This document shows, piece after piece, positions 48,850 through 54,218 of a DNA stretch of 64,000 bases. Numbering within the stretch: the first letter of the stretch is position 1; each line of letters begins with the position of its first letter. Below the pieces are notes generated by a model. That model was not told the origin of the DNA, made no database searches, and saw only the letters and a program-made list of their open reading frames with translations. Made by a program: the position numbers and the translations under genes. Source of the DNA: Candidatus Saccharimonadota bacterium (GTDB lineage: Bacteria; Patescibacteriota; Saccharimonadia; Saccharimonadales; Saccharimonadaceae); NCBI GenBank assembly GCA_028288995.1, contig JAQGHF010000003.1, positions 62,001 through 126,000 on the forward strand, in the 5' to 3' direction.

Positions 48850-49299
48850 CTATTTACCACTCGATATACTTTTACTATACCCACCAAAAAGGAAGTTCAC
48901 CCACTGTTCAAGATTCGAAGTGGCCAGCTGTGCTGTAGGAGTTGTCGTGGTTGCCGCATCCTCTTTTATGGCTGCTGCGCTGTTCGGCGGTAGCACTAAT
49001 GCATGCTCACCAGGTCGTACGAGTCCCAGGGCATCACGAACCGCAAGCTCTTGATACTCAGTCGTCTGGTAGTAATTTTTTTGTAAGGACAAGTTGTCAC
49101 GCTGCAGCTGGGTTAGTTGCAACTGCCGCTTCTTTAAATCAATGTCTTTTTGTAGTCCATAGTTACGTTGCATTGCCCCCAGTGATGCCCATACCCATCC
49201 GGCCGCAATGACAAAAGCCACTAAAATGACGATGTTATTAAGCGTCAAATACTTGTGGCGAATATGATAAATGATTTTTTGTATGTTTATATTACGCAT
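48850..49299 (-). CDS. FtsB/DivIC-family septum formation initiator
   Basis: About 149 residues: short cytoplasmic start, one TM helix (about 22-40), a Leu/Gln/Lys coiled coil (YGLQKDIDLKKRQLQLTQLQ) and the conserved post-coil segment YYQTTEYQELAVRDALGLVRPGEHALVL, the FtsB/DivIC signature. It bridges divisome proteins outside the membrane. An ATG at 49320 is possible but a TATAAT box ends only 2 nt before it, so 49299 is preferred. Confidence 0.82.
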   Translation of the reverse strand: MRNINIQKIIYHIRHKYLTLNNIVILVAFVIAAGWVWASLGAMQRNYGLQKDIDLKKRQLQLTQLQRDNLSLQKNYYQTTEYQELAVRDALGLVRPGEHALVLPPNSAAAIKEDAATTTTPTAQLATSNLEQWVNFLFGGYSKSISSGK

Positions 49300-49376
49300 G
49301 GCGTTTTCGCTATTTCTCATTCATTATAGCGCAGCCCTAGAAACGATGCCATAAAGAAGCTATAATGTCTCCTATT

Positions 49377-49452
49377 GGGGCTGTAGCTCATCGGTCAGAG
49401 CAGGCGGCTCATAACCACTTGGTAGATAGTTCAACTCTATCCAGCCCCACCA
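49377..49452 (+). tRNA. tRNA-Ile2(CAT), lysidine-dependent
   Basis: A 76-nt cloverleaf: acceptor GGGGCTG/CAGCCCC, D stem GCTC/GAGC, anticodon stem GGCGG/CCACT with loop CTCATAA, T stem GATAG/CTATC, encoded CCA. The arm GAGCAGGCG...TTGGT resembles E. coli ileX rather than Met tRNAs, so C34 should become lysidine through TilS (8358-9191). One C.A mismatch is in the anticodon stem. TATAAT is at 49361-49366. It heads the cassette array. Confidence 0.85.
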
Positions 49453-49457
49453 AGTAT

Positions 49458-49742
49458 TTATTTCTTTTTATGCAAATACCTTGCAATCGAGAATACAACG
49501 AACCCTAAAATCAGTAGAAGAATGGCTGCTAGTATGATATCGTCCCCAGACTTGTATGTATAAGTGAGTCCTAGGACTGGAGCATGAATAATAGATACAG
49601 CGCGGAGTGCGTCATTAAGAGGAACTCCGCAAATCACTAAAACAATAGTCGGCACCGCAAACAAAACTGGGACGAAGACTAGCGGCCAATAACGTTTCAT
49701 CCACGCAATGAATACCCTATACGTTGAACTCTCTCGTTTCAT
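49458..49742 (-). CDS. Small two-helix membrane protein, cassette 1
   Basis: A 94-residue protein with two to three hydrophobic segments (about 18-38, 65-85) and a KKK end. Its stop is 6 nt after tRNA-Ile2 and it points toward the tRNA. TATAAT (49751-49756, reverse) ends 8 nt before the ATG, and that box abuts the 31-bp tRNA-tail repeat at 49759. Family unknown. Confidence 0.65.
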   Translation of the reverse strand: MKRESSTYRVFIAWMKRYWPLVFVPVLFAVPTIVLVICGVPLNDALRAVSIIHAPVLGLTYTYKSGDDIILAAILLLILGFVVFSIARYLHKKK

Positions 49743-49758
49743 ATTATTAGATTATAGC

Positions 49759-49789
49759 AGCTCTAACTTCGTTCATAATGCCCCACCAA
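49759..49789 (+). repeat. tRNA-tail repeat A of the Ile2 cassette array
   Basis: First of three 31-bp copies: 28/31 identical to 50181-50211 and 25/31 to 50742-50772. It ends with GCCCCACCAA, identical to the last bases of tRNA-Ile2 plus one. No 5' tRNA half precedes it. Confidence 0.8.
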
Positions 49790-49803
49790 ATGAACCATCG
49801 ATG

Positions 49804-49842
49804 ACAGTCAGAACTATTCTGGCTGTTTTATTTATGCTTGCA
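49804..49842 (+). terminator. Hairpin plus TTATGCTTGCA motif after repeat A
   Basis: ACAGTCAG and CTGGCTGT form a stem (49804-49826, one mismatch) followed by TTTTATT. The 11-mer TTATGCTTGCA (49832-49842) directly follows and recurs after repeat B and after the tRNA-Met terminator. Confidence 0.6.
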
Positions 49843-49885
49843 GCTATTCGGAATCAGTATAGAATTATAGGAAATAGGAGTAATT

Positions 49886-50182
49886 ATGGCGATCACTTAT
49901 GAGAAATTTCCACCAACAGCTGACGATGTACGGCTAGAACCGAGCTTTGTATCTGCGATAACTAATGATTCTGAGGAGGATATGGTTGTATTTACTATTG
50001 CCCAAGAAGATGCATTTCAATTTTCTAAGGAGATAGAACGAAACGAAAACGGAAACATTAACCTAAATGAAGTCAGACGAGGACTTTCTAAAGCGGCCGA
50101 GGCACTCACTGATGGCATTACGAGATCGATGTACATCAAGGGAGTCGATAGCTTTATCGAACGCCAGCTATCACGAGCTTAG
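49886..50182 (+). CDS. Small soluble protein, cassette 2
   Basis: A 98-residue protein beginning MAITYEKFPPTADDVRLEPS, with an acidic NDSEEDMVVFTIAQEDAFQF and a helical C-terminus. AGGAGT lies 5 nt before the ATG. Its stop touches tRNA-tail repeat B. It lies alone between repeats A and B, reading away from the tRNA. No family recognised. Confidence 0.68.
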   Translation: MAITYEKFPPTADDVRLEPSFVSAITNDSEEDMVVFTIAQEDAFQFSKEIERNENGNINLNEVRRGLSKAAEALTDGITRSMYIKGVDSFIERQLSRA

Positions 50183-50211
50183 TTCTGACTTCGTTCATAA
50201 CGCCCCACCAA
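50181..50211 (+). repeat. tRNA-tail repeat B of the Ile2 cassette array
   Basis: Second 31-bp copy, 422 bp after repeat A and 28/31 identical to it and to repeat C. A weak hairpin with T6 follows (50216-50236), then TTATGCTTGCA at 50237-50247, as after repeat A. Confidence 0.82.
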
Positions 50212-50337
50212 CCATAAGCACTTTGCGAAAGTAAGGTGTTTTTTGTTTATGCTTGCAAAATGAGGTCATTAATTCATAATCTTATTTACACATAGTTTCG
50301 TAAGGTTACTCGTATATTACATAGGATTGGAAACGAC

Positions 50338-50643
50338 ATGGAAATTCTTCTGTCCATACTTATTTATGGTTTTCTATACATGGTCGTGGGGGTGATTTGC
50401 TACTTCGTACTGCGCCTCGGCGGTGAGTGGTACCGTGGGGTACTGGACTTCGATCCAGTATCCGGCGTCCTCGAGAAAATCGAAGAGACGGAAGCCCGAC
50501 GAACCCGAATCATTCTCAGGCTCACCGCAGTCGTCGTTGCTCCAGTAGTGTCCGTCATTGCATTCTGCGTGGGCCTGCCTCTTGCAGCCATTAAGGCATG
50601 CTACGTGGGGCTGAGGTTTATCTGGCGCTTCATAGTTACGTAA
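50338..50643 (+). CDS. Small GC-rich membrane protein, cassette 3
   Basis: A 101-residue product with two hydrophobic regions (about 4-27 and 57-90) separated by a charged GEWYRGVLDFDPVSG...EETEARRTR segment. GGATTGG is the likely ribosome site. Codon usage is clearly GC-rich (gtc, ctc, cgg) compared with cassettes 1 and 2, pointing to a different origin. It is bounded by tRNA-tail repeats B and C and followed by a strong hairpin. Confidence 0.65.
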   Translation: MEILLSILIYGFLYMVVGVICYFVLRLGGEWYRGVLDFDPVSGVLEKIEETEARRTRIILRLTAVVVAPVVSVIAFCVGLPLAAIKACYVGLRFIWRFIVT

Positions 50644-50658
50644 TCCTTCCTCCAACCA

Positions 50659-50707
50659 CCCGCTGCAAAGCAATGTCGAGCCTGCTCCATTGCATTAACG
50701 CAGCGGG
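50659..50707 (+). terminator. Nested hairpin after cassette 3 gene
   Basis: CCCGCTGC/GCAGCGGG (50659-50666/50700-50707) encloses GCAATG/CATTGC (50670-50675/50688-50693), followed by TTCTTCATTT. Likely terminator carried with the cassette. Confidence 0.72.
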
Positions 50708-50741
50708 TTCTTCATTTGTCGCACTACCTAAGAGCCAATAA

Positions 50742-50772
50742 AGTTCCGACTTCGCGCATAACGCCCCACCAA
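50742..50772 (+). repeat. tRNA-tail repeat C of the Ile2 cassette array
   Basis: Third 31-bp copy, 561 bp after repeat B (28/31 identical). Its ACGCCC also pairs with GGGCGT at 50784-50789, giving a terminator-like hairpin with a T5 tail facing the end of the 50790 gene. Confidence 0.8.
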
Positions 50773-50789
50773 TCGGGTCCTCACGGGCG

Positions 50790-51704
50790 TTATTTTTGAT
50801 TAAGAATCACGGGACGTAGCTTATTCAGCTTTTCCAGACTCTGATCAACTTGGCCACGAATAGACGATCGCATTCGAGCTTCAGTCAAGCGATCCTTCCA
50901 ATAGGAAAATCGACTATTCTGTTCATCAATAAGGCGTTCATTTAATTTCATGACACCGCTGAGTTGCATAGTATCGAGTAGTTCAAAAATACGATTATCT
51001 AATGCTTCGCCCTTTAAATCATCAATACCAGCATGAATACCAAGTGGATTTTCACCTTTTTCTTCAACGAAAAGATCAATTTCACGGAGTCGTGCTATCG
51101 AGGTAAGTGTTCGGCGAGTCGGCACATCATCCGAAATATCCGCAGATGAGATATTCTGCGATAGTTTCTGATTCATGTTAACTGGGCGATCACTGATTGT
51201 ACGAGTGAATAAACGGCTAAATCCTACTTCCATATGAGCTTGTACAGCATAGTCTTCAAAGTGACGCGCGATTGAACGAAGGGCACGTATCGGATCATCG
51301 GTCTTAGCTTTTCGCTGACGGTATTCAACTTCGTCAAGGTAACGAAGTGTTGGAAACCCGCTTTCAGAACGTCCAACGATCGCTTGCATTGAATTCTTCT
51401 CATCATTATCTCGAGCATAGAAACCAGTTTCTTTATGCAACAACCTTAGCGCAGTTGCGACACCAAGAGTCTCGTCTTTAAGCTCTTCTTTTCCTGATCG
51501 GATTGCCTGCTCGGCGAGTGATTGACGAATCAAACGAATAGTAGGACCTTCTAGCTCACTATCGGGCACACGTACCATTGGGTATTCAGTCCTGTCTGGT
51601 CGTGGCTGTACAGGGTCAACCATAAGTTCAAGCGGCAAAATATCACCATCTTTAGACACGTAGCTACGAGAATCGGTCAAAAGAGGTTCATGGTACTCAG
51701 GCAC
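50790..51704 (-). CDS. Hypothetical soluble helical protein
   Basis: A 304-residue protein, mostly helical and charged, without signal or TM segments. Segments include TIRLIRQSLAEQAIRSG, EVEYRQRKAKTDDPIRALRS and SYWKDRLTEARMRSSIRGQV. It starts with GTG (51704) after AGGA. No family recognised. The next gene upstream (51805) has similar composition and strand, so they may belong together. Confidence 0.65.
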   Translation of the reverse strand: MPEYHEPLLTDSRSYVSKDGDILPLELMVDPVQPRPDRTEYPMVRVPDSELEGPTIRLIRQSLAEQAIRSGKEELKDETLGVATALRLLHKETGFYARDNDEKNSMQAIVGRSESGFPTLRYLDEVEYRQRKAKTDDPIRALRSIARHFEDYAVQAHMEVGFSRLFTRTISDRPVNMNQKLSQNISSADISDDVPTRRTLTSIARLREIDLFVEEKGENPLGIHAGIDDLKGEALDNRIFELLDTMQLSGVMKLNERLIDEQNSRFSYWKDRLTEARMRSSIRGQVDQSLEKLNKLRPVILNQK

Positions 51705-52332: not shown

Positions 52333-53457
52333 CTACTCCCAGCGGAAGACTCGGAAAGCAATAATGTAAATAATAACCAGCCACGCACCAGTTAGACCGA
52401 TTTGCGGAAGAATATCAACGAACTGCTTACCTTCTGTTGCGATCAAACGGATGCCGTCAATGATTGGGGTGAGCGGAAGGAATGCAGAGATGTGCTGGAG
52501 CCAATCTGGCATGAGATAGCGAGGGAAGAATGTTCCTGATAGAAACATCATCGGGAAGACGATGATATTTGATAGAGGCGCTGCCTGCCGCTCGTTCTTT
52601 GCCCAACCACCGAGCGCAAGACCGATACCGAGGATCGTGATCATACCGAGGAGGAGGAAACCGAGTAATTCGAGCCAATTCCCCACCACATCCAGATGGA
52701 AGACAAAAATGGCAACAATGAATAGTGCAGCGAAGCTAATAATACCGATCGCAGCTTGTCCAATCATCGTTGCAAGGAAATACTGCCAGACATGAAGCGG
52801 CGTTGTACTGAGTCGACGAAGGATACCCATCTTTTTCAGTTCCGGGAAGACATTCAATGGACCAAAGATACCCATACCAATCAGCGAGAATCCAAGGAGC
52901 CCTGCAAAGGTGTAGTCGAAGGCGCTGAGGCTATTTTCGTTGAGTTGTGTGCCCTTTACTGTGAACGGTGTCACTGTGGGGACGAGTGAATTGTTAATAG
53001 ATTTGAACTGGGTATTGAGCACTGACGTGAGCGCAGAGGCAGACGCTTGGTTGTTCTGCGTGTAGATAACTTCTGCTTCCCCACTTGGGTAGTTCTGGCC
53101 AGTTTGTACGTCACCGAAGTTCTCTGGGAGCACAATCGTTGCATCGAGTTCAGACCTACCCATCTTATCTTTAGCCTGATCGAGGCTCGTGATGCTGTTA
53201 TTCACTTTGAGAATTTTACTATCCTGTGACTGTTTGACGAAATCTGTCGCAAATTGAGACTTTGAGTGGTTGATGATTGCAACATTAAATGAAACGTTAC
53301 CACCGCCACTGTTAAGGCTTCCAAAGACGAAAAGGAAGATGAGCGGGAAAACGAGCGTAAAGAATAGCGCGAGACGATCACGAAAAAAGCGCTTTGTGTT
53401 GATTCGAACAAATACACCAACAGTAAAGAGTTGTTTACGAAATGACAATTTGTTCAT
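52333..53457 (-). CDS. ABC-2 type transporter permease
   Basis: A 374-residue permease: N-terminal TM helix (about 28-48), a large external domain (50-180), then five helices. GKQFVDILPQIG and the core GILRRLSTTPLHVWQYFLATMIG are ABC-2 features of YadH/YhgE-type drug or polymer exporters. The start overlaps the ATPase stop (TAATG), so the pair is one transporter. Substrate not predictable. Confidence 0.92.
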   Translation of the reverse strand: MNKLSFRKQLFTVGVFVRINTKRFFRDRLALFFTLVFPLIFLFVFGSLNSGGGNVSFNVAIINHSKSQFATDFVKQSQDSKILKVNNSITSLDQAKDKMGRSELDATIVLPENFGDVQTGQNYPSGEAEVIYTQNNQASASALTSVLNTQFKSINNSLVPTVTPFTVKGTQLNENSLSAFDYTFAGLLGFSLIGMGIFGPLNVFPELKKMGILRRLSTTPLHVWQYFLATMIGQAAIGIISFAALFIVAIFVFHLDVVGNWLELLGFLLLGMITILGIGLALGGWAKNERQAAPLSNIIVFPMMFLSGTFFPRYLMPDWLQHISAFLPLTPIIDGIRLIATEGKQFVDILPQIGLTGAWLVIIYIIAFRVFRWE

Positions 53458-54218
53458 TATGATTCTTCCCTTAGTCCTTTTCCTGTCAGATCGATAAAGA
53501 CATCTTCAAGGTTCGCCTGCTCTACTTCTTGAGTTTTCTTAAATCCACGCTTCAGTAGCTGCTTGATAAGATTTTTTGGTGTATCAAGTGCAATGATTTT
53601 GCCATTATCCATCACAGCGATACGATCACAGAGAATTTCTGCTTCATCCATGTAGTGAGTGGTCATAATCACGCTAATTCCTCTATCACGAACCTTTTCG
53701 ATAAGCTCCCATAGGTTACGACGAGCTTGTGGGTCAAGACCAGTAGTTGGTTCATCAAGAAAGAATACCTTTGGACCGTGCACAAGCGCAGTAGTAATGC
53801 TCAGGCGTTGTTTTTGGCCACCTGAAAGACTTTCGACGTACGACTTCGCCTTATCTTGGAGGTCAACATCACGCAGGAATTGCATCGCATCAACTTTTTC
53901 ACCATACGCCGCAGCAAACATCTGTACGACTTCGATAAGCTGTGTTTTGTCTTGGAAGGCTGGTGATTGTGGCTGGACACCAATGAGGTACTTGATTGCC
54001 TGTGGATTTGCTTTTACATCAATGCCGTCAATCACGACACTCCCCGAGTCAATCGGTCGGAGTGTTTCCATCATTTCTAGTGTCGTGGTTTTACCGGCAC
54101 CATTTGGACCAAGAATGCCGAAGATTTCTCCCTTTTTTACCGAAAAGCTGACACCATTCACGGCCTGCTTGTCCCCGTAACGTTTCTTGAGGTCTTTGAC
54201 CTCGATCATATTCTTCAT
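53457..54218 (-). CDS. ABC transporter ATP-binding protein
   Basis: A 253-residue ATPase: Walker A GPNGAGKTTTLEMM, Q-loop in IGVQPQSP, signature LSGGQKQRLSI, Walker B VFFLDEPTTGLDP and switch MTTHYMDEAE. The C-terminal EQANLEDVFIDLTGKGLRE matches drug/polysaccharide exporter ATPases. It drives the overlapping ABC-2 permease. Confidence 0.96.
   Translation of the reverse strand: MKNMIEVKDLKKRYGDKQAVNGVSFSVKKGEIFGILGPNGAGKTTTLEMMETLRPIDSGSVVIDGIDVKANPQAIKYLIGVQPQSPAFQDKTQLIEVVQMFAAAYGEKVDAMQFLRDVDLQDKAKSYVESLSGGQKQRLSITTALVHGPKVFFLDEPTTGLDPQARRNLWELIEKVRDRGISVIMTTHYMDEAEILCDRIAVMDNGKIIALDTPKNLIKQLLKRGFKKTQEVEQANLEDVFIDLTGKGLREES

Follow-up and report, generated by a model that had tools for sequence, protein, structure and literature searches.

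The window, by which we mean the whole stretch of 64,000 nucleotides that was analyzed, harbors a gene for tRNA-Ile2 (CAT anticodon; positions 49377-49452, forward strand), identified by both ARAGORN and the Rfam tRNA model (60.4 bits). On the same strand it is followed by three 31-nt repeats, called here sites A (49759-49789), B (50181-50211), and C (50742-50772), the last of which ends the array. An earlier note on this DNA had described the tRNA and the three repeats, and its coordinates proved to be exact; it had also remarked that the repeats end like the tRNA, and all three indeed finish with GCCCCACCAA, as tRNA-Ile2 does. Each site comprises a left arm (49760-49780, 50182-50202, and 50743-50763, respectively) and a core, CCCCACCA, that corresponds to the tRNA end (49781-49788, 50203-50210, and 50764-50771). 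Sites A and B are 90% identical and sites A and C 81%. With up to three mismatches allowed, the repeat pattern was found at these three places only in the genome of 836,540 bases, and the reversed control gave no hit. The tRNA is the anchor of the array, and its 3′ end, ..GCCCCACCA, is presumed to represent attB.

The three intervals hold one small gene each, in agreement with the earlier description. Cassette 1 (336 bp; 49453-49788) extends from the end of the tRNA to the core of site A, and its predicted open reading frame of 94 aa (49458-49742) lies on the reverse strand, against the array direction; the description must be corrected on this point, as genes 2 and 3 have the opposite orientation. 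Cassette 2 (422 bp; 49789-50210) begins with a terminator-like hairpin and a T run (49804-49830) and carries on the forward strand an orphan gene for a 98-residue protein (49886-50182), whose stop codon overlaps site B and for which no relative was detected in the 392 other genomes of the order. Cassette 3 (561 bp; 50211-50771), also on the forward strand, has an imperfect hairpin with a T run at its 5′ end (50219-50244) and codes for a hydrophobic protein of 101 residues (50338-50643). Its codons are GC-rich, as had been noticed, with a GC3 of 0.60 vs. 0.43 ± 0.056 for 408 long open reading frames. Searches of Pfam, NCBIfam, and PHROG yielded no confident protein family for any of the three genes.

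To the left, the array is flanked by a gene for a DivIC-like septum protein (48850-49320, reverse strand; Pfam DivIC at 22.6 bits, under the cut-off of 28.9), which is present in 16 of the 17 genomes of the genus and adjoins tRNA-Ile2 in those examined. To the right, a pair of genes for an ABC permease and its ATPase (52333-54218, reverse strand) occupies the same place in relatives. The gene for a 304-residue protein that comes directly after the array (50790-51704) is itself variable, since among 16 relatives of the genus it was found only in G444, at 33% identity, where it directly follows tRNA-Ile2. No integrase is encoded within the 64-kb window, as had been observed; the single tyrosine recombinase of the genome, which is Xer-like, is encoded elsewhere (C5:322427).

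Repeats found in other genera are alike over their left 22 nt and differ at their ends, which reveals a site made of two parts, namely a left arm of approximately 22 nt (consensus GTTCTRAYTTCGNNNANNAYGC) common to several genera, and a 3′ end of 6-9 nt that equals the end of the upstream tRNA, whatever its identity. The left half had been interpreted as a copy of the tRNA T loop; it is instead a separate arm, conserved between arrays located at different tRNAs, that we take to be the candidate binding sequence of the recombinase. The genome of the window has three arrays, at tRNA-Ile2, tRNA-Arg(TCT), and tRNA-Trp, with site ends matching each of them, and further degenerate sites are present in the Trp array. 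In G132, five sites behind tRNA-Arg(TCT) all end with GCTGTACCR, and the sequence GTACCAAATTTAAGTTATACATA, found directly after that tRNA, recurs after some of the sites. The site ends also follow variation within one tRNA species. Thus, a tRNA-Arg(TCT) ending with ..GGGGTACCA is accompanied by sites ending with ..GTACCA and one ending with ..GGGGCACCA by sites ending with ..GCACCA, and a tRNA-Gln(TTG) ending with ..CCCTAGCCA has a site ending with ..GCTAGCCA, the Gln(TTG) ends being either CCAGCCA or CTAGCCA.

The correspondence between sites and tRNAs was assessed with sites picked by their left 21 nt alone, the 3′ end being unused; each site was then assigned the closest tRNA upstream of it on its own strand. 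In most sites the last bases are those of the assigned tRNA over 6-9 nt; for most Arg tRNAs the match is of 6 nt and consists partly of CCA, a sequence found in almost every tRNA. Over the five bases that precede CCA, 32 curated arrays matched their own tRNA at 3.88 positions on average vs. 2.23 after permutation, and none of 20,000 permutations reached the observed value. The same result (0 of 20,000) was obtained with one array per tRNA type (11 arrays), and again with the unselected nearest-tRNA assignment of 70 sites in 28 arrays, mismatching ones included. Since the tRNA and the sites share the core and the sequences after the core differ, the crossover must lie in the core. In G587 (C16, L218), which does not belong to Saccharibacteria, some tRNA genes seem to be devoid of an encoded CCA, and the site present there ends with GGAACAA rather than with CCA.

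The organization seen in the window recurs in other arrays. Altogether, 28 arrays yielded 89 intervals, 57 of which contain one gene and 30 two or more, a count that is approximate because degenerate sites fall below the thresholds used; some of the multi-gene intervals are perhaps cassettes merged by degenerate sites. The 89 catalogued cassettes have a median length of 728 bp and a median distance of 10 nt between stop codon and site, and 109 genes are oriented along the array direction vs. 44 against it. The families of 100 cargo proteins were mostly seen once. Eight of these proteins are NUDIX hydrolases, and ParE-type toxins, ABC ATPases, and a β-lactamase-fold protein were also identified. 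A tRNA-Tyr-associated array of G336 (L095:8889-10807) contains two near-identical cassettes with genes for ParE-like toxins; each is 645 bp long, and over their whole length they are 89% identical. A cassette common to genera g5 and g23 is 78% identical in DNA and 87% in protein, the similarity beginning 14 nt past the core and ending with the stop codon.

Comparisons between relatives place the insertion point at the very end of the tRNA. At the Ile2 locus the flanks are constant, with DivIC on the left and the ABC transporter pair on the right, and the gap between the tRNA and the ABC genes varies from 464 bp without a cassette (G090) to approximately 2.9 kb in the window and 6.2 kb in G008, a variation in keeping with what the earlier note had expected from an alignment of the locus. 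In alignments with the closest relative, G135, the similarity breaks off precisely after the final base of the tRNA at all three loci (tRNA-Ile2, tRNA-Trp, and tRNA-Arg). None of the cassettes of the window's genome was found in G135 by DNA or protein searches, which does not fit the same genes being kept at fixed positions in all relatives; the sites that G135 itself carries are located at tRNA-Gly and, probably, at tRNA-Trp and tRNA-Asn. All of these comparisons are between species-level genomes, many of which are metagenome assemblies. Site quality does not fall with the distance from the tRNA (p = 0.24), and an insertion order proximal to the tRNA is therefore unsupported. In G101, a tRNA-Ile2 gene (L011:8303-8987) is interrupted at its anticodon by approximately 610 bp of inserted DNA that contain a group I intron (RF00028, 73.6 bits).

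Could the repeats be conserved RNA elements, involved in 3′ processing or termination, vertically inherited and unrelated to insertion? Strong terminator-like hairpins do occur at 28% of cassette 5′ ends vs. 2% of random stretches, which would suit such elements. Against this, the repeats match no Rfam family, their 3′ ends vary with the tRNA that precedes them, and the content of the arrays turns over between relatives. As a sole explanation RNA elements are refuted because the site ends covary with the tRNA, and the probability left to them is close to nil.

The sites are widespread. With at most three mismatches, the arm was detected in 64 of 393 genomes of the order (two hits for the control), and a relaxed arm pattern in 120 of the 393, representing 68 genera, with approximately 10 control hits. 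That different cargo should lie between like sites had been proposed, and in these 120 genomes the site recurs with other cargo. The arm is also present in other classes of Patescibacteria, as seen in a sample of 380 Patescibacteria. A search of GTDB contigs for the exact pattern returned 33 stretches, the named records among them all being from Saccharibacteria or Saccharimonadia and the rest metagenome-assembled genomes, and the exact site was not found in the IMG/VR viral collection. Arrays are located behind tRNA-Ile2, -Arg, -Trp, -Gly, -Tyr, -Gln, and -Asn, and tRNA-His is probably an anchor too, with one site and a 6-nt match. Genera g1, g8, g35, and g36 are rich in sites. The large genus g2, whose genomes are small, mostly of 600-900 kb, has few, and these mostly deviate from the relaxed pattern at one position. 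Among open-licence full texts, none was found to describe arrays of this kind in Saccharibacteria or in any other Patescibacteria.

It is highly probable that the array in the window results from the serial insertion of cassettes at the 3′ end of tRNA-Ile2, and that it is one case of a system found in Saccharibacteria and other Patescibacteria. The earlier note had proposed serial single-gene insertion at a tRNA end, in the manner of integrons, and the comparisons of locus, relatives, and cargo support that proposal. A cassette consists of a 5′ end, often with a terminator, usually a single gene, and the site directly after its stop codon. Once excised as a circle, it would carry the arm, the core, and the 5′ end, and a tyrosine-type recombinase acting in trans might cross the circle with the 3′ end of the tRNA. 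The tRNA would retain its own end and acquire a new downstream sequence, a second copy of the core would arise where the cassette ends, and repeated insertions would generate an array. Cassettes may also pass from one cell to another. After insertion, the cassette terminator might provide the tRNA transcript with a new end.

The system is best read as site-specific recombination at tRNA 3′ ends, integron-like in its working without being an integron, given that there is no IntI, no attC-like pairing, and no linked integrase. As in integrons, cassettes are mostly single-gene (57 of 89 consist of one gene and a site) and oriented in one direction, the site comes right after the stop codon, and the cargo is diverse, with many genes of unknown function. 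Unlike integrons, in which attI with its Pc promoter lies beside intI, the arrays have neither IntI nor an integrase-adjacent attI and start at tRNA genes; the site has a tRNA-end core, and many cassettes possess their own terminator.

The idea that they might nevertheless be true integrons, or CALINs that have lost the integrase, with sites that are divergent attCs recombined by IntI as single-strand hairpins, draws on the single-gene cassettes with the site after the stop codon and on two features of the arm. The arm head TTCTAAC resembles the R″ box of attC, RYYYAAC. Some sites also have an inverted partner of the arm head, GTCAGAAC. In the window this 8-nt copy lies at 49807-49814, on the opposite side of core A, and together with site A it forms the best inverted arm-head pair genome-wide; more generally, inverted arm copies right of the core are found at 10% of 5′ ends vs. 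1.5% of controls and are thus enriched rather than general. The formation of attC-like hairpins was judged by the pairing energies of the left arm with the adjacent or its own 5′ end as compared with others, and cognate pairing proved to be no stronger than non-cognate pairing within an array, whether at the junction (p = 0.73) or in the circle (p = 0.78). In addition, attC has nothing comparable to the tRNA-specific core at the center of these sites. With the integron integrase model TIGR02249, for which the cut-off is 265, the sole tyrosine recombinase encoded in the genome reaches 138 bits, but it passes a XerA-type model. Divergent integrons are therefore very unlikely.

Which enzyme might move the cassettes was approached by a census of recombinases. 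Among 61 array genomes, 44 have one Xer-like tyrosine recombinase, 11 have more, and 6 draft assemblies have none. A dedicated XerC/D-like integrase co-occurring with the arrays had been anticipated; the census found none, nor any dedicated recombinase linked to the arrays. Extra tyrosine recombinases are present in 11 of the 61 array genomes vs. 2 of 19 comparison genomes, a weak contrast because several of the comparison genomes proved to carry divergent sites. Serine recombinases (PF00239) were found in 22 of 23 array genomes checked. These enzymes use a 2-bp crossover, which would leave the 6-9 nt match to the tRNA unexplained, and they were rejected as candidates. Two large serine recombinase genes (open frames of 681 and 797 aa) were observed in G007 (C5:27000-43000, L102) near tRNA-Ser genes, around an Arg(GCG) cassette. 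The host Xer has close to an even chance of being the recombinase, a helper integrase from a passing element one that is only slightly smaller, and some other enzyme a small one; integrase-bearing islands located at the same tRNAs could serve as such helpers.

A version of the favored explanation in which the enzyme is fixed compares the cassettes with dif modules, the host Xer moving them by means of arm-core-arm sites. In Acinetobacter, dif modules are plasmid-borne and flanked by dif-like XerC/XerD sites (PMC6449649). They resemble the present cassettes in being small gene modules bounded by recombination sites, with the recombinase encoded elsewhere in the host genome, whereas the arrays described here are chromosomal and tRNA-anchored, and the genome has a single Xer and no identified dif. 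Xer being the sole tyrosine recombinase in those 44 genomes, including G004 with approximately 11 sites in one array, argues for this version, as does a site of G135 (180669-180721) in which a core resembling a tRNA end is enclosed by two complete arms in inverted orientation, the layout of tyrosine recombinase sites. Conversely, genomes in which no sites were detected likewise encode Xer, and scans with the known dif consensus, for palindromes, and for conservation between two genomes identified no dif in G000 or G135. A difH-like 28-mer at C3:7194 was discarded as a dif candidate, as it falls within metG and has no counterpart in 60 relatives. No conserved element was found beside xer, and nothing arm-like at the replication terminus of G135, taken as the GC-skew maximum, so that the use of Xer is without support from a shared dif motif. 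Modules moved by the host Xer are a serious possibility, at somewhat less than even probability.

Insertion at tRNA genes brings to mind several known elements. Additive flexible genomic islands with tRNA-tail repeats have been described in Ca. Actinomarinales (PMC7771536), in Ca. Methylopumilus (fGI-2; PMC10872708), and in Alteromonas (fGI1; PMC4119200). Like the arrays, they target a tRNA and accumulate adjacent cassettes between direct partial-tRNA repeats. Their content varies between strains, and the arrays share with them insertion at a tRNA 3′ end with a partial repeat at the far boundary and, between relatives, a variable content at a fixed locus. In those islands, however, the repeat is a plain piece of tRNA, such as the last 20 nt of tRNA-Lys, and sizes reach tens of kb, whereas the cassette repeat consists mostly of a lineage-wide, non-tRNA arm and owes just 6-9 nt to the tRNA, a unit usually comprises a single gene with its site at the stop codon, and the same arm is used at several tRNAs per genome. 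Tycheposons, as cited in PMC10872708, are cargo transposons of 4-200 kb that encode a tyrosine recombinase. They are likewise tRNA-seeded islands with partial tRNA copies at their boundaries; unlike them, the cassettes are mostly of approximately 0.3-1.5 kb and contain no recombinase. As tRNA-targeted additive islands are already known, the arrays are filed as a variant of tRNA-targeted cassette islands, and the new points are the two-part site, the one-gene unit, and the service of several tRNAs by one arm.

The arrays might also be remnants of ordinary tRNA-targeted islands, integrase-bearing or satellite and tycheposon-like, inserted in tandem and deleted to one gene each. Integrase-bearing islands do use the same tRNAs; in G105 (C1, approximately 754-766 kb; L089 and L192), a 10.5-kb island at tRNA-Arg(TCT), which encodes a 418-residue integrase and, as judged by eye, a DinB/UmuC-like polymerase and a SRAP-like protein, has pushed the cassette array away. 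The long, multi-gene intervals and the extra tyrosine recombinases of some array genomes point in the same direction. However, in the G105 island the duplicated part of the tRNA exceeds 40 nt and the GTTCTAAC arm is missing from the end, while cassette sites share just 6-9 nt with the tRNA, next to the lineage-wide arm. Deletion would not repeatedly yield a median of 10 nt between stop codon and site in unrelated cassettes, and whole cassettes are duplicated with exact ends. Decayed islands are thus an improbable origin for the arrays.

Insertion of discrete cassettes at tRNA 3′ ends remains the preferred reading, and this lineage seems to collect genes by a route of its own, akin to that of integrons, for which tRNA genes are the docking point. 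More tentatively, and with a probability that we place below even, Patescibacteria might possess their own cassette capture, separate from integrons, with approximately eight tRNA docking species, a fixed arm and an exchangeable core, and the housekeeping Xer as the only recombinase. Saccharibacteria and other Patescibacteria have tiny genomes, many of them living on other cells, and little is known of the way in which they acquire genes. The combination of arm and tRNA end would provide a simple tag by which accessory genes could be retrieved from thousands of genomes, and whether a housekeeping Xer recombinase can drive gene capture at tRNA genes becomes testable. If true, a lineage-wide cassette system would join integrons as the second instance of site-specific recombination capturing single genes, and it would explain the origin of many orphan genes in these bacteria.
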